A stretch of DNA of 45,486 nucleotides from contig NZ_FTOH01000015.1 in assembly GCF_900156675.1 (NCBI RefSeq), positions 1 to 45,486 on the forward strand, given 5' to 3'. The notes under the pieces were generated by a model. That model had not been told where the DNA came from and ran no database searches. It saw only the letters and a program-made list of their open reading frames with translations. Both the position numbers and the translations under genes were made by a program. Source of the stretch: Thalassolituus maritimus (GTDB taxonomy: Bacteria > Pseudomonadota > Gammaproteobacteria > Pseudomonadales > Oceanobacteraceae). Positions within the stretch are counted from its first letter, which is position 1; every line of letters starts with the position of its first letter. Shown piece by piece: positions 24,854 to 45,486 of the stretch.

Positions 24854-24957
24854 CCTTCAGATTTTGAGGGTTTATGTAAACCACCTGCCAGTTTTGTGCA
24901 AAGTCGGTTCCCGGTACTAGTCTGGAAATAACTATCCATTCCCGAGGGCTGCTCTGA

Positions 24958-26430
24958 ATGCTGCGTTATTTGGATTCCTGCATCGCCACACCGCGGCCGG
25001 TTAAGCCTGAAAAGCTACTGAAGGCCCGGGTACTTGCAGGTTTGGCTATCTGTGCCATTTTCGCCATGCTGGTGATTCTGGTGTCGCAGGCCATGCTGGG
25101 CGTACAGGGATTTACCGCAGAGCATCATGCGTTTCTCGCTTTAGGGTGTATCTGCCTTCTCCTGGTCCGCTTCACTCATGCGATAGAAATCACGGCTCGT
25201 CTGCTACTGATCGGAATCCTGTTGTACTTCTCCTACGGCGCTTACTTAACAGGCGGCCTGACAAGCTTCCTTATCCCCGGACTGTTGGTTTACCCATTGG
25301 CTTGCGCCATTCTCGCGGGCCTGAAATACGCACCCTATTGGGTAATTGCAGGTCTTGGCTCTCTTGTTGTTCTGGGGGTTATGGACCCAGACAGCAGCGT
25401 ACCGATGTCGGATTACGCGTCCGATATGCTGCACATGATAGGCATGTTACTGGGCGCGGGTGCGATTGCTGTGCTGGCGCTGATTTACGAAGGCTCTAAG
25501 AATACGGGGTTCCGGAGACTTGAGCATCAACGTAAAGACGCAGAAGAACTGAGTGACCGGATCAGTGAGCTGTTGATTTCAGTAAATTACTCCATCGTTG
25601 TGATCAGCCAGGAAATAAGCGCCATAGCGCGTCGCTCCGATGAGACCGCAGGCGAAATGAAGTTACAGTCTGAATTTGCTAATGAAATTCATAGTGGGAT
25701 GGGCGAGCTTCGTCAGCAGGTGGCGGAGAACGCCGGGCTTTCGAAAAAGCTTGCTGAGGATGCCTCGTCGTCTGGTGAGCTGGCCTCGGAGAGCGTCGAC
25801 ATCATGGCCGCATCCAACAAGGCAATGGCTGCGGTGTCAGACAAGATCTCGGAAGCCGGACGGCATATTGAAGAACTCGACCGGCGTAGCAGTGAGATAT
25901 CAGAGATAGTGACTGTGATTCAGGCGGTCGCAGAGCAAACCAACTTACTGGCACTGAATGCAGCGATTGAGGCGGCCCGGGCAGGAGAGCATGGTCGCGG
26001 TTTTGCGGTGGTGGCCGACGAAGTGCGTCAACTTGCAGAGCGAACGCACCGTTCGAGTGGAGAGATCAGCGATAAAGTCACGGGTATTCTCAAAATTACT
26101 CATCAGGCACAGGAGTCCATGCGTCAGGTGAGTGAGCTGGCGGAGTATGGCCGTGAGAGTTCTGATAAGTCGAATCAGGCGGTAGGGGTGTTGCTGAATA
26201 CTTCTAACGAGATTAATGCATACCTCTCGGGGTTATCTGAGTCGAGTGAGAGCCAGAATGCACTGAATGAAACAGTGACGGAGCGGTTTGATTCCATCCG
26301 TTCTGCGATAGAGAAGGCGTTTTCCTCAACCTCTGAAGTTGCTGACGCGATTCAGAGGCTGGAAAATGAGGTCTCGACGCTTTCTCAACTGGCCAGTTCA
26401 TTTGCAGGTAGTGACGCCGAGTTATTCTGA
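24958..26430 (+). CDS. methyl-accepting chemotaxis protein
   Basis: A 490-residue chemoreceptor. The N-terminal part has about five or six membrane segments (residues about 25-180) with only short periplasmic loops, so there is no classical ligand-binding domain; a signal in the membrane or inside the cell is inferred. The long cytoplasmic coiled coil contains the hairpin tip, with [19 protein letters not shown] followed by [18 protein letters not shown]. No HAMP domain is obvious. The gene stands alone, 104 bases after rnhB, with no che genes nearby. Confidence 0.92.
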
Positions 26431-36767: not shown

Positions 36768-37889
36768 GTGACGACTCAGATACCAAGTGCAGAAACGCTG
36801 GAGTCATTCAAAAACGACCTCGACCAGATCCGGGATGAGACCATGGCCAAGGTGGGTGCAGAAGACGCCCGTTACATCCGCAAAGTCGTTCGTGTGCAAC
36901 GCATACTTGATATTGGTGGCCGTGCAATCATGGTTGCAGGTTTCTACCACTGGATTTGGTTTGTTGTAGGGGCTGTCATGCTGGGTGTGGCTAAGATCCT
37001 CGATAACATGGAAATTGGTCATAACATCATGCACGGTGCCTATGACTTTATGAACGATCCACACCTGAACGGCACCACGTTCGAATGGGATAACGTGTGT
37101 GACGGTCAGTCATGGCGTCGTACGCATAACTTTGAGCATCACACCTACACCAATATCATTGGCAAAGACCGTGACTTTGGTTACGACCTGCTGCGTCTGA
37201 GTGATGACACTCCCTGGAAGCCACGCTTCAAGAATCAGTTCTTCTGGTACCTGGGTTTGTCGACTTTCTTCCAGTGGGGCGTTGCTTACCATGAGCTGAT
37301 TGGTGAGCGTGTATTCTTCGGTAAAAAGAAAGTAGACCGTGAGAGCGTTGTAACGAAGAAGCAGCTGGCTAAGGACTTCTTCTCTAAAATTCGCAAAGGT
37401 GTGTTCCGCGATTACCTGTTCTATCCGGGTGTTGTTGCTCTGTTCCTGGGCTGGCCAATGTTCTTCGGTATACTGCTGGCGAACATGGGCGCGAACCTGA
37501 TCCGTAACTTCTGGGCATCCACCATCATCTTCTGTGGTCATTTTACAGAAGATGTGCACACCTTCAGTGAAAAAGAGTGTGAGAACGAAACGCGCGGTCA
37601 GTGGTACTACCGTCAGATTCTGGGTTCCTCTAACCTTGAAGGCTCAAAGCTGCTGCATATCATGAGTGGTCACCTGAGCCGCCAGGTAGAGCACCACTTG
37701 TTCCCTGATATGCCATCGTATCGCTACAACGAAGTGGCAGAGAAGGTTCAGGAAGTCTGTCGCAAGCACAACATTCCGTATAACACAGGCTCGCTGTGGA
37801 GCCAGTACAAAACGGTGGTTGAGCGTGTATTGAAGTACAGCAAGCCAACACCAGAAGAGAAGGCGGCCTTCAAACAAGCCAGAGCCTGA
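36768..37889 (+). CDS. membrane fatty-acid (acyl-CoA type) desaturase, copy 2
   Basis: A 373-residue paralogue of the preceding desaturase, alike over its whole length: the same HNIMH, HNFEHH and QVEHH boxes and the same C-terminal PDMPSYRYNE block. It differs most between residues 155 and 215. A GTG start at 36768 is preceded by caggag and gives an N terminus matching copy 1 (MTTQIPSAETLESF). It has its own upstream region and terminator. Tandem duplication with separate control suggests different conditions (temperature or substrate) rather than simple dosage. Confidence 0.9.
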   Translation: MTTQIPSAETLESFKNDLDQIRDETMAKVGAEDARYIRKVVRVQRILDIGGRAIMVAGFYHWIWFVVGAVMLGVAKILDNMEIGHNIMHGAYDFMNDPHLNGTTFEWDNVCDGQSWRRTHNFEHHTYTNIIGKDRDFGYDLLRLSDDTPWKPRFKNQFFWYLGLSTFFQWGVAYHELIGERVFFGKKKVDRESVVTKKQLAKDFFSKIRKGVFRDYLFYPGVVALFLGWPMFFGILLANMGANLIRNFWASTIIFCGHFTEDVHTFSEKECENETRGQWYYRQILGSSNLEGSKLLHIMSGHLSRQVEHHLFPDMPSYRYNEVAEKVQEVCRKHNIPYNTGSLWSQYKTVVERVLKYSKPTPEEKAAFKQARA

Positions 37890-40446: not shown

Positions 40447-40743
40447 AAGAAACCCTGACAGAAAGACCTTAAAGAGACTGGATCATGGCAAAGGGTGCCC
40501 ACAAGAGCAATGATCAAAGATAACATCGCAATGATCGAACGTGTGGATTACGTGATGCCCTTCGAAGGCGCCTGAATGCAAAGATAGTATGGGTATCCAT
40601 ACAGTATATTTTGGAGTTATCGAATAAAACTGGCACGCTTTACATTCGCGCTTGCGCGTTTTGCCGGTGGGTAGTACGGTAAACATTAAACGAATCAAAG
40701 GCTTACAAACTTGGTTTACAAGTTTATGTGCAAGCTCTCGCCG
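40447..40743. other. junction between chromosome and cassette array
   Basis: No convincing gene. No integrase gene and no clear attI were seen. An inverted repeat AAACTTG-gttta-CAAGTTT (40707-40725) and a possible weak promoter (CTTACA at 40702-40707, TATGTG at 40725-40730, 17 bases apart) point towards the cassettes. Both are tentative. Confidence 0.4.
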
Positions 40744-40881
40744 AAATAACAGGCGTGCGCGTTTTTCTGGAAAGGGTATTTGAGTTATGGAAGATTCTTC
40801 AATGAAGTCAGTGAGTTACCCTGGAAAGCTCGAAAGAGTGTTCCAGGATAAACGCGCACGCACACTAACAAGCTGTTATGC
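40744..40881 (+). repeat. attC-like site 0 (long, partly degenerate)
   Basis: The 3' end has a good L'-R' pair: ACACTAAC (40862-40869) and GTTATGC (40875-40881). The arms gcgtgcgcgtttttctggaa (about 40753-40772) and ttccaggataaacgcgcacg (about 40841-40860) are inverted repeats over about 20 bases, so the bottom strand would fold as an attC. On the left AAATAAC is the R'' candidate, but a clear L'' is missing. At 138 bases it is about as long as the Vibrio VCR sites. It marks the left edge of the array. Confidence 0.55.
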
Positions 40882-40900
40882 GTACTCGTAGGCTGTATCC

Positions 40901-41233
40901 ATGTTGAGTAAGATCTTGATTTACATTATTTCAGCAGCGTGCTTAATTGCGTTGACTTACTGGATATATCTGTACATAACCGACGCTCCAAAAGTAGTGA
41001 GCGTTGAGCGCGGAGTAATAAGCTCACACCGTGGCGAATCAACATTTGTTGAGTTAGAAAGTGGTGCAATAATCGAAACACCGATTTATGAGAGTCAGCA
41101 AGGTTCTGAAGTGCTTGTTGTTGTGAAATCGGGTAGGAGAACGGGTAACATCTCATACCTAATATCTAAGCCTTCAAAGATCTTGATAGCAGTAGACGCT
41201 GACAGTTTCGATGAAGACGGCAATTGGAAGTAG
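40901..41233 (+). CDS. cassette protein of unknown function, membrane-anchored
   Basis: A 110-residue protein with one N-terminal membrane segment (residues about 5-27, LIYIISAACLIALTYWIYLY) and a soluble domain of about 80 residues, predicted beta-rich with alternating Ile/Val. I do not recognise the family. It is the first cassette, between attC site 0 and attC site A; its stop codon lies directly before the R'' core of site A, the usual compact cassette layout. Confidence 0.7.
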   Translation: MLSKILIYIISAACLIALTYWIYLYITDAPKVVSVERGVISSHRGESTFVELESGAIIETPIYESQQGSEVLVVVKSGRRTGNISYLISKPSKILIAVDADSFDEDGNWK

Positions 41234-41234
41234 C

Positions 41235-41346
41235 GCATAACAAGGCCAGTAACAGCGAGCAATTTTTCCGTCGCTTTTTCGTGGCGGGCGCTACGCTGCC
41301 ACAAAAAATCCACTCCAAAATTGCCGCGTTCTGGCGGCGTTATAAG
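41235..41346 (+). repeat. attC site A
   Basis: R'' GCATAAC (41235-41241) and R' GTTATAA (41339-41345) bound a 112-base imperfect palindrome. ggccagtaacagcgagcaat near 41243-41262 pairs with the region attgccgcgttctggc near 41320-41335. This is the recombination site of the first cassette. Confidence 0.85.
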
Positions 41347-41359
41347 GCATAGTCGAAGA

Positions 41360-41908
41360 ATGTTGAAAACGGATAGATTACTGCTTCGTCAATGGACAGA
41401 GGATGACTTTCTTCCTTTTGCTGAAATGTGCAGTGATAAAGAGGTAATGGAGTATTTTCCTAAGCTCCAGACTAAAGAAGAAAGCTACGAAATGGGGATA
41501 AAGATCTTATCCCTTATACATGATCGTGGTTGGGGATTTTGGGCCGTCGAAATACCTGACCAGCATAAATTCATTGGCTTTGTTGGTTTGCATACTCCAA
41601 CAGACAAAATGCCGTTTTCGCCTTGTGTAGAAATTGGCTGGCGATTGTCAAAGGAGCACTGGGGTAAAGGGTATGCAACCGAAGCAGCCAAAGAAGCCTT
41701 AAAATTTGCATTCACTCAGCTAAATCTAAATGAGGTTGTCTCATTTACAACGCTCTCCAATGAACGTTCTAAATCAGTCATGCAAAAGATTGGCATGCAA
41801 AACAGTAATGAAAATTTTATGCACCCCGATATTGAAGTATCACACCCTCAATGTGAGCACGTTCTGTACAAAATCAATAAATCAGACTGGCAGCAAAATG
41901 CCTTATAA
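41360..41908 (+). CDS. GNAT acetyltransferase, RimJ/RimL type (cassette)
   Basis: A 182-residue acetyltransferase counted from the ATG at 41360 (MLKTDRLLLRQW); the frame is open to 41321 but that part lies in attC site A. The RimJ/RimL hallmarks are TDRLLLRQWTEDD at the N terminus, FIGFVGL, and the acetyl-CoA segment WRLSKEHWGKGYATEAAKEA. Substrates of cassette-borne members are usually unknown; small molecules or protein N termini are possible. Second cassette. Confidence 0.88.
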   Translation: MLKTDRLLLRQWTEDDFLPFAEMCSDKEVMEYFPKLQTKEESYEMGIKILSLIHDRGWGFWAVEIPDQHKFIGFVGLHTPTDKMPFSPCVEIGWRLSKEHWGKGYATEAAKEALKFAFTQLNLNEVVSFTTLSNERSKSVMQKIGMQNSNENFMHPDIEVSHPQCEHVLYKINKSDWQQNAL

Positions 41909-41997
41909 CAAGTTGCTCAAATTCGTTCCGGGCGCAAAAAGCGCGCCCTCCACCGGACAGCCTACGCTACGCTTTGGCTGCCGTTTAGCAAGGCGTT
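41903..41997 (+). repeat. attC site B, interrupted by an insertion sequence
   Basis: R'' TTATAAC (41903-41909) overlaps the stop codon of the acetyltransferase gene. The palindrome runs to ggcGTT (41992-41997), where the insertion sequence begins. Beyond the insertion the sequence continues GTTAGCT (43788-43794). Joining the two sides over one GTT restores a normal R' core, GTTAGCT. Confidence 0.8.
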
Positions 41998-42068
41998 GAG
42001 GCTGTAGAAAAACTCTGAAAAACAGACGTTTTTTGATAAAATAGACCTCTGATTTTCGGAGGTCTTAA

Positions 42069-42758
42069 ATGCCCAACTTTAAAAAGTACGACTACGATCA
42101 AACCGCAATGGTGGTCGTTAACTTTCTTGAACAACTTCAGCCAGGCACCTTCGAATTTACTCTTCATCAGCTGATTGAAGGTCATATCGATTTATCTGTC
42201 TTCTATGAAAAATACCAAAACGATCAGGGTGGTCGCTCTGCTTACGACCCTGCCATTTTATTGAAAATAATATTGTTCGCGTACTCTAAGGGCATCACCT
42301 CAAGCCGTGAAATTCAGTGGCAATGCGAGAATAATATTATTTTTAAAGCGCTGTCATGCGACTCTGTCCCTCACTTCACCAGTATTGCAAGTTTCGTTAG
42401 CAGCTATCCCGATGCTATCGAATCTGTATTCGAACAAATACTGCTGGTCTGCTCTGAACAAGGCCTTCTCGGTAATGAACTGATCGCCATTGATGGCTGC
42501 AAAATGCGATCAAACGCGTCGAAAGAACACTCTGGAACCTTGTCTGAATTATCTGAGAAACGTCAGAAGATACGTGCTCAAATTAAGCACTGTATGAAGG
42601 AGCATAAAAAACTCGATAAGCGCAAGCCTCGGGAACGAGAGCGAAAAGAACAGCTCGAACAATCAATCGATACGTTATCAAAGCATTACGAGAAAGTTGA
42701 TCAATTCCTAAAGACGCAACCCCAAGGATGGGGCAAGGAAAACGACCCAAAGAAGTAA
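42069..42758 (+). CDS. IS1182-like transposase, N-terminal part
   Basis: 229 residues: the DUF772-type helical N-terminal domain (YDPAILLKIILFAYSKGI), then the first catalytic Asp in IAIDGCKMRSNASKE, then a charged coiled coil (about 155-215). It stops at 42756-42758, shortly before the rest of the catalytic domain. The next frame (-1) continues the family sequence without loss. The overlap contains a C CCA AAG heptamer. Alone this part lacks two of the three catalytic residues. Confidence 0.85.
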   Translation: MPNFKKYDYDQTAMVVVNFLEQLQPGTFEFTLHQLIEGHIDLSVFYEKYQNDQGGRSAYDPAILLKIILFAYSKGITSSREIQWQCENNIIFKALSCDSVPHFTSIASFVSSYPDAIESVFEQILLVCSEQGLLGNELIAIDGCKMRSNASKEHSGTLSELSEKRQKIRAQIKHCMKEHKKLDKRKPRERERKEQLEQSIDTLSKHYEKVDQFLKTQPQGWGKENDPKK

Positions 42759-43630
42759 AAAGTAACATCACCGATAATGAGTCGGGAAAAATGTTAACCA
42801 GTAAAGGAACGATCCAAGGTTACAACGGTGTCGCTGCTGTGGATAAGAAACATCAGATTATTGTAGAGGCTCAGGCATTTGGTGAAGGTCAGGAACATCA
42901 CACGTTAAAGCCTATATTAGAAGGCATTCAAGCCCGATATGATCGCCTTGGAATTAGCGAAGATGTCCTGGGCGATCAGGTTATCGTCACAGCAGACACA
43001 GGTTTCTCGAACGAAGATAACAATCTCTACCTGAAAGAAAATCGAATTAATGCCTATATCCCGGATAATGCATTTCGTTCCAGGGATAAAAAATTTGCAA
43101 ATCAAAAAGAAAAGTACGGCAAGCGTCATCAAGATACAAAAGTGGGAGTTAAACAGGTTATTCCATCGAGCGAATTCAAGCTAAATCAAAAGAATAAAAC
43201 CTGCATTTGTCCTGCTGGTAATTTGATGTGGCTAAAAGACGAAGCTACTAAGAGAAATGGTGACAAAAAATTCGCCTTTGAAGGGCGACTGACTGATTGT
43301 CGAAGCTGCCCTTTGAAATATGACTGCATGAGAAATCCAGACTCTCCGAATGACCGAAGTGGTCACGGTCGACAAGTCAGCTTTACGATAAATAAAGGTA
43401 AAAGCGCGACTGAGTGGATGAAGAAGCGTGTCGATAGTCAGTTCGGTAAGAAGGTCTATGGTCATCGAATGTCAGTAGTCGAACCCGTATTCGGGAATAT
43501 CGGCACTAACAAAGGCTTGAACCGGTTTTCGCTGAGAAGCAAAGCGAAAATTCAGGGACAATGGCTACTGTTTAGCTTGGTTCATAATATTGAAAAGATC
43601 ATGAATTATGGTCAAATGAGGGGTATATAG
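42728..43630 (+). CDS. IS1182-like transposase, C-terminal part
   Basis: The open frame from 42728 gives 300 residues, but the ATG there is probably not a true start; expression is expected by -1 frameshift from the upstream part, giving about 520 residues in all. Seen: the second catalytic Asp in VTADTGFSNEDN, a Cys-rich insert (CICP, CRSCPLKYDC) typical of IS1182-type enzymes, and the catalytic Glu in HRMSVVEPVFGNIG near the C terminus, followed by RSKAKIQGQWLLFSLVHN. Confidence 0.85.
   Translation: MGQGKRPKEVKSNITDNESGKMLTSKGTIQGYNGVAAVDKKHQIIVEAQAFGEGQEHHTLKPILEGIQARYDRLGISEDVLGDQVIVTADTGFSNEDNNLYLKENRINAYIPDNAFRSRDKKFANQKEKYGKRHQDTKVGVKQVIPSSEFKLNQKNKTCICPAGNLMWLKDEATKRNGDKKFAFEGRLTDCRSCPLKYDCMRNPDSPNDRSGHGRQVSFTINKGKSATEWMKKRVDSQFGKKVYGHRMSVVEPVFGNIGTNKGLNRFSLRSKAKIQGQWLLFSLVHNIEKIMNYGQMRGI
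42735..42752 (+). promoter_or_regulatory. candidate -1 programmed frameshift site
   Basis: The heptamer CCCAAAG (42746-42752) is read C CCA AAG in the first transposase frame, the X XXY YYZ form. Slipping back one base gives CCC AAA, then GAA GTA in the second frame, restoring the family sequence (NDPKEVKSN). A Shine-Dalgarno-like AAGGA lies about seven bases upstream, a known stimulator spacing range for -1 slippage. No strong downstream hairpin was seen. Confidence 0.5.
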
Positions 43631-43813
43631 TCTGTTTTAGTGCTGAATCAGGCCGTAAGCGCGTAAAAAATGAAATTGGCTGTTTTTTAGTCGATTATTT
43701 TTGTACATTATTGTTAATTAAAAAATTAATAGCAAACAAAGGAGCGTAGAAAGATGGATTTTTCTAAGAATGTTTTTCTACAGGCTCGTTAGCTGGCAAT
43801 AATAAGGAATATC

Positions 43814-44107
43814 ATGAGTGGTTACATTATTTATCACTACAACATTATCGATGAAAAAAGAATCGACCAGCTAGGGCCGTTATCTTTACCAATTGTGGAG
43901 AAATATTCTGGCAAGTTGGTGGTGGGTAGTGGTGTTAGAGTACTAGAAGGTTCCCCATATACAAATATGGTCATATATAAATTTAAGAGTATTGAGTCAG
44001 CAAAGGTTTTTTATGAGTCCAAAGAAGCTCAAGAACTTTCAAAACTAAGAAACGAAATTACAGAGGGTATTGTGGTATTTGTTCCAGAATATGGCGCAGA
44101 GCAATAG
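43814..44107 (+). CDS. DUF1330-like small protein (cassette)
   Basis: A 97-residue protein of the dimeric alpha/beta-barrel type. The pattern GYIIYHYNIIDEKRIDQ, GKLVVGSG and FKSIESAKVFYESKEAQEL is that of DUF1330 proteins. No catalytic residues can be assigned. It is the gene of the cassette that follows the interrupted attC site B; its own attC is site C. A ribosome-binding site (aaggaa) precedes it. Confidence 0.8.
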   Translation: MSGYIIYHYNIIDEKRIDQLGPLSLPIVEKYSGKLVVGSGVRVLEGSPYTNMVIYKFKSIESAKVFYESKEAQELSKLRNEITEGIVVFVPEYGAEQ

Positions 44108-44116
44108 CATAGTATC

Positions 44117-44221
44117 AGCTAACAAACGGCTGCACCGGACAAATTTTAGCCGTCATCTTTTGTGCAAAAGTACGCACAAAAGCCGCCATCAAAAATTTGC
44201 TCGGTGAGCCGGGCGTTAGGC
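44117..44221 (+). repeat. attC site C
   Basis: R'' AGCTAAC (44117-44123) and R' GTTAGGC (44215-44221) bound a 105-base palindrome. caccggacaaatttt pairs with aaaatttgctcggtg. The tip is an inverted repeat, cttttgtgc...gcacaaaag (44157-44182). Confidence 0.92.
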
Positions 44222-44252
44222 TGTCGTAGCCGACTTACTCAAAGGTTAAGAA

Positions 44253-44738
44253 ATGGATTTCAAAATTGAAGCAACAAACTGTTTAGGTTTTCCTGATTCT
44301 GAATTATCAGAATTACTAAATGATGTTTATGTGGGCGAAGGCTACACAGAAGCTGAATTAGCAGAATCGCTATTTGATGCTGCTGCTATTCGTTCAAGGG
44401 GGCGAATTATCACAGCCTCTAATACTGAAAATCAGCGCTTAGCGGGATTAGTTATCATGGTTCCACCAACATCTAACGCAAGAAAGCTAGCAAAAGAAGA
44501 TGAGGTAGAAGTTCACCTTCTTGCTGTTAAGAAAGAGTTTAGAAATAATAACTTAGGTAGTAAATTAGTTAGTAAGCTAATTCTTCAAGCACAGGACGAG
44601 GGCTATAAAAGAATAATTCTTTGGACGCAAGACTCCATGAAAGCGGCTCAAAATCTATATGAAAAATTAGGGTTTATCCATGAGTCAAATTTTATAGCTA
44701 ATGGGCGTGATTTCTATCTGTACCATCGAACATTATAA
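44253..44738 (+). CDS. GNAT acetyltransferase (cassette)
   Basis: A 161-residue acetyltransferase. The central strand VEVHLLAVKKEFRNNNLGSKLVSKLI holds the acetyl-CoA site (R/Q-x-x-G-x form as R-N-N-N-L-G-S). The C-terminal KAAQNLYEKLGFIHES is the usual last helix and strand. The N terminus (LLNDVYVGEGYTEAELAESL) fits small-molecule acetyltransferases. Substrate unknown. Fourth cassette gene; its stop is at the R'' of site D. Confidence 0.85.
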   Translation: MDFKIEATNCLGFPDSELSELLNDVYVGEGYTEAELAESLFDAAAIRSRGRIITASNTENQRLAGLVIMVPPTSNARKLAKEDEVEVHLLAVKKEFRNNNLGSKLVSKLILQAQDEGYKRIILWTQDSMKAAQNLYEKLGFIHESNFIANGRDFYLYHRTL

Positions 44739-44837
44739 GCCTAACAAACAGTTGGTGAACGCCCCTGCGGGGCTGGGACGGTTAAACTTCGCTCGTTCCT
44801 CACTACGTTTCACCGCCCCACAACAAAAGCGTTATGA
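44739..44837 (+). repeat. attC site D
   Basis: R'' GCCTAAC (44739-44745) and R' GTTATGA (44831-44837) bound a 99-base imperfect palindrome; ggtgaacgcccc... pairs with ...caccgccccac in part. The gene on the left ends directly at it, and the next gene starts 12 bases after it. Confidence 0.88.
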
Positions 44838-44849
44838 GGTATTCATGAA

Positions 44850-45290
44850 ATGAAATTTAGGCTTATCACAGAGAATGACATTAGAAATTGTGCGCAGCTA
44901 TTTTCTCATGTTTTTTCAACGGAACCTTGGAATGAACCTTGGACAGAAGAAGATGCTTTCAAAAGATTAAATCATTTCTTCGAATCTAAGGGCTTTGTAG
45001 GTGTTTTGCTTGAGAGTGAAGATCTTATGGGGTTTGCTCTAGGTAATGTTGAACCTTTTCACTTCGGCGATATGTTTTACCTTCGAGAAATGTGTATAGA
45101 TACTAAAATGCAAGGCTCAGGTCATGGTCATAAATTACTTGAAAGTCTTGAAGAAAATTTAAAGAATATGAATGTAAATAGCATCTATTTGACTACTGAT
45201 ATAGAAATCCCAGCATCTAAGTTTTACAAAAAAAACGGGTTCAATTTCAAGGATACAATGGGGTTCTATGCTAAGCCTATCAATTCATAA
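44850..45290 (+). CDS. GNAT acetyltransferase (cassette)
   Basis: A 146-residue acetyltransferase. The N-terminal block VFSTEPWNEPWTEEDAFKRL is seen in a group of GNAT proteins near the aminoglycoside 6'-type, though no closer assignment is justified. The acetyl-CoA site is MCIDTKMQGSGHGHKLLESL (Q-x-x-G-x-G/H). The C-terminal SKFYKKNGFNF is the usual end. Resistance or a small-molecule role is possible but not shown. Fifth cassette gene; its stop overlaps the R'' core of site E. Confidence 0.85.
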   Translation: MKFRLITENDIRNCAQLFSHVFSTEPWNEPWTEEDAFKRLNHFFESKGFVGVLLESEDLMGFALGNVEPFHFGDMFYLREMCIDTKMQGSGHGHKLLESLEENLKNMNVNSIYLTTDIEIPASKFYKKNGFNFKDTMGFYAKPINS

Positions 45291-45390
45291 CAAGGTGCGG
45301 CAAACTGACCTCCGTTTACGGTCACCTTTTGTGCAAAAAAAACGCACAAAAAGCGCCAGTAATCTTCGGCTGTTGCGCACGGCGTTAGCT
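45285..45390 (+). repeat. attC site E
   Basis: R'' TCATAAC (45285-45291) and R' GTTAGCT (45384-45390) bound a 106-base palindrome. Its tip (cttttgtgcaaaa...acgcacaaaaag, 45326-45352) is nearly the same as that of site C. Confidence 0.92.
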
Positions 45391-45446
45391 GACCGAGTTA
45401 CCCATGAAAAGTAGACACCTCACTACTACCTAATGAGGGTCTTTAA

Positions 45447-45486
45447 ATGACTAAGAAAACGAAGAACAAATACAATCACTACACCG
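45447..45486 (+). CDS. start of a coding region, possibly IS3-type transposase OrfA (partial)
   Basis: Only 13 codons lie in the window (MTKKTKNKYNHYT). The short basic N terminus resembles many IS3-family OrfA proteins. The bases just before (tgaaaagtagacacct, 45404-45419) look like an insertion-sequence end. The gene follows attC site E, so it is either in a cassette or in a second insertion sequence that entered the array. Assignment is weak. Confidence 0.35.
   Translation, partial: MTKKTKNKYNHYT

Follow-up and report, generated by a model that had tools for sequence, protein, structure and literature searches.

The R' core of attC sites follows the consensus GTTRRRY, and the integron integrase, IntI, cleaves at G/TT. 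Tetu and Holmes (2008) is reportedly the original paper on the IS1111-attC group of insertion sequences, and Post and Hall (2009) is a further reference for it. According to the excerpts consulted of PMC11187229, this group belongs to the IS110 family, includes ISKpn4 and ISPst6, and targets attC, while group IIC-attC introns are described in the consulted portion of PMC7923331 as integron-associated mobile elements that insert at attC. In the part consulted of a plant-microbiome survey (PMC11089894), cassette-associated transposases of the phyllosphere are mostly assigned to IS5 (49%), IS3, and IS110, with IS1111 named as attC-targeting; some of the IS5 entries could be elements of the kind described here. 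Within the IS1182 family, the excerpted text of PMC5678879 describes IS1272 as targeting stem-loops and replacing them, with new insertions arising without target duplication. PMC10057117 was considered as a precedent and set aside, since the "cassette" in the portion consulted is a tet region beside an IS5/IS1182 transposase, and the paper was absent from those found to mention attC together with IS1182. In the open-access literature searched, which included few subscription papers, we found no description of an IS1182 element or any other DDE element that targets attC, and the attC-targeting IS1182 branch analyzed here is apparently undescribed so far.

The window element and its cassette array

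The last 4.7 kb of the window (the whole 45.5-kb stretch of DNA analyzed) is an integron cassette array with short ORFs between attC sites. We scored attC folds with an anchored measure of our own, not the IntegronFinder model, which places R'' AAC opposite R' GTT with a short spacer on both sides, L'' and L' arms, and at most one bulge. The array and the element within it comprise the following features.

41235..41345, + strand: uninterrupted attC of the preceding cassette (score 8.5)
41321..41908, + strand: cassette ORF upstream of the interrupted attC, GNAT-like by reading alone
41903..41997, + strand: attC interrupted by the element, with R'' TTATAAC (41903-41909), L'' and L' arms, and the start of R' (GTT) (anchored score 8.0)
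41995..41997, + strand: left target copy, GTT
41998..43787, + strand: IS1182-family insertion sequence, 1790 bp, with ends conserved in relatives at other sites
41998..42013, + strand: left terminal inverted repeat GAGGCTGTAGAAAAAC, similar in relatives
42069..42758, + strand: transposase ORF1, 229 aa, DUF772, with AIDGCKM as the presumed first catalytic Asp region
42728..43630, + strand: transposase ORF2, 300 aa, in the -1 frame relative to ORF1, DDE_Tnp_1_6
43772..43787, - strand: right terminal inverted repeat GAGCCTGTAGAAAAAC (reverse strand), similar in relatives
43788..43790, + strand: right target copy, GTT, the first three bases of the R' core GTTAGCT (43788-43794)
43814..44107, + strand: 97-aa cassette ORF downstream of the element
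44117..44221, + strand: uninterrupted attC of the next cassette (score 9.5)
44739..44837, + strand: further attC (GCCTAAC ... GTTATGA), identified by eye only and not among the sites scoring at least 8
45285..45390, + strand: further attC (TCATAAC ... GTTAGCT) (score 8.0)

Three ORFs of the array look like GNAT acetyltransferases by reading alone. The same genome encodes an integron integrase above the TIGR02249 cut-off on another contig (G000:C21:417-1355). By eye, the start of the array (~40826-40870) is near-identical to a stretch upstream of intI at the start of that contig (L170, ~98-145), perhaps as an attI-like duplicate. Also by eye, the end of the window's contig just past an attC (45391-45486) resembles the start of another insertion sequence, and contig C21 opens next to intI with a similar end.

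The initial annotation had placed the element exactly inside an attC R' core, with terminal inverted repeats that abut GTT on both sides, and both statements are borne out. The repeats pair at 15 of 16 positions (GAGGCTGTAGAAAAAC at 41998-42013 versus GTTTTTCTACAGGCTC at 43772-43787), and removal of the element and one GTT leaves ...AGCAAGGCGTTAGCT, which restores the R' core GTTAGCT. The restored site has the complementary R''-L''-L'-R' arms of an attC between AAC and GTT, with a span of 99 at its anchored score of 8.0. Because the right tip of the element is a C, the repeated target can be read as GTT (3 bp) or CGTT (4 bp), with the GTT reading giving the more symmetrical inverted repeat. 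A search for outward promoters at the right end of the element gave six promoter-like sites against 5.4 expected, which is no excess.

The description of the element as IS1182-like is upheld by its transposase, which combines DUF772 and DDE_Tnp_1_6 domains. ORF1 matches PF05598 (1.6e-15) and ORF2 matches PF13751 (2e-28) and PF01609 (5.8e-10), where TADTGF and VVEPVFG are presumed to be the second Asp and Glu regions. The two halves both match the IS1182 model NF033551, with scores of 111.3 and 149.5, each alone below the curated cut-off of 270 bits, while an undivided clade member (in G072) scores 301.3. The terminal inverted repeats are of IS1182 type, with GAGGCTGTAGAAAAAC of the window and CGAGGCTGTGTGAAAACG of another IS1182 element (L144) alike by eye. 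Matches of the window transposase to Pfam and NCBIfam models were solely to DUF772/DDE, IS1182, and, weakly, IS5 models, and a DEDD transposase as in IS110 elements was absent.

An ORF of at least 505 aa is present in 69 of 80 relatives, whereas the window transposase is divided into two overlapping ORFs. The same split, 229 + 300 aa, occurs in a copy at another site (L002, 3271-5060), which has the same length and 44 differences from the window element over 1790 positions. At the codon level, these are 11 silent and two replacing differences in ORF1 and 20 silent and six replacing in ORF2; two differences inside the ORF overlap alter the ORF1 protein but not the ORF2 protein. Since the split is common to both copies and the differences are mostly silent, the split form may well be in use, perhaps via (programmed) ribosomal frameshifting.

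The element resembles the IS1111-attC group, as characterized in the excerpts consulted, in being an insertion sequence aimed at one end of attC, which is a shared habit rather than shared membership. Those elements have a DEDD transposase with a guide seekRNA and subterminal repeats, whereas the present one has a DDE transposase with DUF772, terminal repeats, and a GTT next to either end. Group IIC-attC introns differ in having a ribozyme and a reverse transcriptase; no Rfam match, and hence no group II ribozyme, was found in window positions 40500-45486 up to E 0.1.

Related copies, their junctions, and their carriers

Since the window's genome contains a single copy of the element and a single copy of the interrupted attC, the insertion habit had to be examined in other genomes. 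To this end, relatives were gathered by transposase protein alone, blind to flanking DNA: genome contigs were queried with the C-terminal half of the transposase, and the best 80 of 197 relatives were taken. The 85 copies analyzed are the 73 of these 80 with both ends readable, the window copy, and 11 from further protein searches. Of the 80 loci, seven had an end that was not readable (L003, L019, L038, L047, L050, L061, and L069), and L117 and L118 (left flank of three bases) and L119 and L127 (left end not found) lie outside the counts. L123 and L125 are apparently the same contigs as L074 and L027, to which they are equal in length.

The left flank ended in CGTT in 84 of the 85 copies, the exception being CTTT in L046, and the right flank started with GTT in all 85 (GTTA in 79 and GTTG in six), with an end search that favored a GTT neighbor by a one-mismatch bonus. 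Five copies in one genome (G242) were located with GTT-containing strings, and comparison of the five with one another confirms their borders; the ends of L122 were moved one base by hand. Orientation was single throughout: with the transposase on the + strand, AAC flanked both sides in none of the 85 copies. Nine copies have less than 100 bp of left flank (L010, L011, L013, L014, L021, L024, L025, L028, and L029), each of which ends in GCGTT at the beginning of its sequence, and fold scoring therefore covers the 76 copies with at least 100 bp.

A full attC fold was found on the left flank at 59 of these 76 sites, using a strict threshold (score of at least 6.5) that was chosen after the scores were seen. 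The same score was reached by 19 of 1520 dinucleotide shuffles of these flanks (Fisher p 9e-75). Among CGTTA sites, it was reached by three of 81 in the window backbone (1-41000; p 1e-23) and by 197 of 1227 in the fetched loci plus the window, cassette arrays included (p 1e-29). All three p-values are to be read with sites of the same genome as not fully independent. At a score of at least 8, the corresponding counts were 44 of 76 insertion sites, one of 1520 shuffles, one of 81 backbone sites, and 121 of 1227 sites in the loci. The strict sites differ in sequence, with 49 different L' octamers among the 59. The anchored score also fires at two places in the window backbone, 24932-24965 and 37025-37180. 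It replaced a score that took the best AAC anywhere and separated poorly (57 of 76 versus 469 of 1229 at a score of at least 10).

The 17 sites below the threshold comprise four presumed remnants of intron-hit attCs, five degenerate or undecided sites (L046, L048, L049, L081, and L126), and eight without a recognized attC (L032, L056, L065, L071, L072, L078, L113, and L114). A group II intron match (RF02001) lies 100-200 bp left of the element in L037 (2899-3065) and L122 (3983-4182), and the end of the stretch between the L037 intron match and the attC remnant is common to L036, L038, and L039, with L122 assigned by eye. L036, L037, L039, and L122 thus appear to be attCs whose R'' side was taken by a group II intron; perhaps one attC was hit by two unrelated mobile elements, the intron at the R'' side and the IS1182 element at R'. 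A relaxed stem score rescued few of the 17 sites: three to five of 100 shuffles were as good for L037, L039, and L048, and at least nine for the others. The eight sites without attC all have CGTT on the left, GTTA on the right, and the same orientation, and indicate that the fold is not essential. The locus L071, whose full copy lies at one of them, also has a short non-autonomous copy at a strict attC.

The proposal that an IS1182-like element has a habit of inserting at attC cores, for which the initial annotation had only one copy, is therefore supported by strict attCs at 59 of 76 sites in many genomes, with one nucleotide position and one orientation; copies in unrelated targets, devoid of any attC or GTT preference, would have spoken against it, and even the eight attC-less sites are CGTT/GTTA. 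A C precedes GTT at all 59 strict sites compared with 111 of 134 unoccupied attC-like sites (p 2e-4), the latter being + strand sites held to a stricter score (at least 8) than the occupied ones. This difference implies that some primary sequence is read, and that CGTT is also possible as the repeat.

Multiple insertions within single genomes follow the same pattern. Six copies of equal score are present in Microbulbifer YPW16, and the five examined occupy five different strict attCs on one chromosome. Using a search string that contained GTT, we found four short non-autonomous versions (165-187 bp) that share the ends of the full elements and have a GTT next to each end; two occupy strict attCs.

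L024, 2939-3105: short non-autonomous element
L026, 1973-2149: short non-autonomous element
L071, 1177-1341: short non-autonomous element
L076, 5098-5284: short non-autonomous element

The L076 short element adjoins a full element through one single GTT. In an all-versus-all comparison of flanks (up to 1.2 kb), a long left flank was common only to L034 and the uncounted L038, and a right flank only to L026 and L029 (69% over 580 bp), the latter having no left flank. As to whether IntI co-mobilizes the element with the downstream cassette, this comparison, with 150 bases on the right and 250 on the left printed, favors neither side.

For 24 of the 59 occupied attCs, there were unoccupied near-copies with at least 80% identity in the portion to the left of the element; 25 sites were listed, of which L031 matched its own occupied copy. 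These near-copies are related attCs of other cassettes rather than before and after states of one locus. GTT is not repeated in the best unoccupied copy printed for each site, although that of L080 continues GTTT rather than GTTA, and one each for L041, L052, and L053 has CCTT. Uninterrupted counterparts of the window attC itself, which the initial annotation had proposed to look for, turned up at 87% and 85% identity in the same family (L162 and L163) and at 83% in the same order (L164). A single GTT in unoccupied copies means either that GTT is doubled on insertion or that a GTT-bearing element recombines at GTT, and both would fit the sequences.

The habit extends across a divergent clade. 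In a FastTree tree of 112 transposase rows, which contains long branches and for which no root was inferred, a 100* branch divides 91 clade rows from the 21 rows of other IS1182 elements, with the "attC" label assigned by clade rather than by score. The lowest identity to the window protein at which a strict attC site was found is 38% (L120), and others are at ~39-44% (L112, L115, L116, and L128). Matches to the C-terminal half at 1e-10, some of them fragments, were present in 29 of 369 genomes sampled from the class, and matches to the clade profile at 1e-50 in five of 398 sampled from the phylum, all five in the window's class; both counts include the window's own genome. Two relatives were found on plasmids at E 1e-40 (41%, Pseudoalteromonas), and none in a scan of viral contigs. 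The 98% identical copy L002 (NVXM01000009.1) is on a contig binned as Sphingopyxis, which reflects either misbinning or wide transfer; the other named carriers among the best 80 of 197 relatives are Gammaproteobacteria or unplaced proteobacterial MAGs.

IntI matches at 1e-30 were detected in 27 of 30 carrier genomes (25 over the cut-off) compared with 115 of 274 genomes of the class (104 over the cut-off; Fisher p 3e-7), where the 30 carriers were hand-picked and some are also among the 274. The three carriers without such a match were G490, G783, and G803. Both copies in G803 (Oceanospirillum linum), L071 and L078, are at sites without attC, and the copy in G490 scores just 3.5, its site resembling by eye the L044 attC with a changed R''.

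The probable joining enzyme and what it may read

Across the clade, we observed an exact insertion position, a fixed orientation, a GTT repeat, and a preference for attC over other CGTTA sites. These features are probably best explained by a DDE transposase that selects attC, inserts at the 3' foot of the fold after CGTT, and repeats GTT or CGTT. The transposase, rather than IntI, would do the joining, linking the element ends to the two strands of a double-stranded R' three bases apart; insertion would occur at the foot of an attC fold or cruciform, with the fold kept and the left end always towards the attC stem. Given that hairpins harbor insertions of some other IS1182 members as well, we infer that the transposase may recognize the fold or cruciform rather than sequence alone, and the fixed orientation implies an asymmetric reading of the target. 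An AlphaFold model of one clade member (L015) was poor (mean pLDDT 65) and uninformative on target binding.

After insertion, the left attC retains R'', L'', and L', and its GTT continues as GAGG, which gives a core close to GTTRRRY; the left end of some relatives starts with CAG or CTG instead. Because its arms and a near-consensus core are kept, this attC is expected to be usable by IntI, which would leave the element at the head of the next cassette. We tentatively suggest the fuller reading, possible but short of probable, that the DDE transposase reads the folded attC and inserts in one orientation at its foot, such that the attC stays usable and the element, now heading the next cassette, could be moved both by the integron and by itself.

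Observations that sit uneasily with transposase-mediated selection of an attC fold include the eight of 76 sites without attC, the C before GTT at all 59 strict sites, and the fixed orientation despite nearly symmetrical ends, which would also fit site-specific recombination. The main rival is accordingly capture by IntI, in which the integrase recombines an excised circle, with a CTC-GTT-GAG junction, at the attC G/TT. It predicts the same GTT on both sides and the same fixed orientation, agrees with the exact position, and is in keeping with the IntI matches in 27 of 30 carriers. However, it would have to accommodate the eight copies at CGTT/GTTA without a recognized attC, whose orientation is unchanged, the three of 30 carriers without an IntI match at 1e-30, and the occupation of hairpins unrelated to IntI by some other IS1182 elements, and we consider it unlikely.

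We regard as very improbable that the transposase reads just the short CGTTA carried by attC and that insertions elsewhere are lost by selection. The flanks do agree with this idea, since 84 of 85 left flanks end in CGTT and 79 of 85 right flanks start with GTTA, the eight attC-less sites included, but only three of 81 backbone CGTTA sites are attC-like compared with 59 of 76 insertion sites, and selection would have to purge most insertions at other CGTTA sites. Chance insertion of one copy would be compatible with the single copy in the window's genome, but is refuted by relatives from many genera that occupy dozens of attCs at the same nucleotide position and in the same orientation, with only L034/L038 (left) and L026/L029 (right) sharing long flanks. 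Selection of attC by the transposase thus remains our preferred explanation.

Hairpin targets among other IS1182 elements

A search with NF033551 gave 30 loci, one of which (L153) falls inside the clade. GTT on both sides was found in none of 23 other IS1182 loci with candidate ends, and ends were not found for six more. Four of 18 IS1182 elements examined (L129, L131, L132, and L134) repeat palindromic hairpins of 18, 18, 21, and 26 bp, respectively, on both sides; these are terminator-like by eye, with self-complementary fractions of 0.78, 0.44, 0.86, and 0.85 as printed, the L131 hairpin being palindromic once shifted by one base. The repeat of L130 is 15 bp long, and those of the remaining 13 of the 18 are at most 8 bp. 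The flanks of a further IS1182 branch (L136-L139 and L143-L146) often have, by eye, GTCCGCT- or GTCTGCT-type words, which are perhaps intergenic repeats serving as targets.

The four hairpin-associated elements resemble the attC clade in being matched by NF033551 and sitting at hairpins, and differ in having a complete copy of the 18-26 bp hairpin on each side, as well as other inverted repeats. IS1272, to the extent covered by the excerpted text of PMC5678879, shares the transposase family and a target chosen by its fold; it replaces stem-loops of unrelated sequence, whereas the present element keeps the fold, targets attC, and repeats GTT. Hairpin targets therefore occur in more than one IS1182 branch, and targeting of attC may be one such specialization.

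This suggests that branches of one insertion sequence family became specialists of different hairpins. The clade is present in dozens of copies in Gammaproteobacteria whose names mostly point to marine habitats; it would be a third lineage specialized on attC, with an enzyme unrelated to those of the other two. Insertion at R' places an element between cassettes and not inside their ORFs, so the habit bears on both the evolution and the annotation of cassette arrays. If the transposase does read the folded attC, IS1111 elements, group IIC introns, and IS1182 elements would be three unrelated lineages that converged on attC, sometimes two on one attC, and the clade would offer a natural system in which to study the reading of DNA structure and the fixing of orientation by a DDE transposase.
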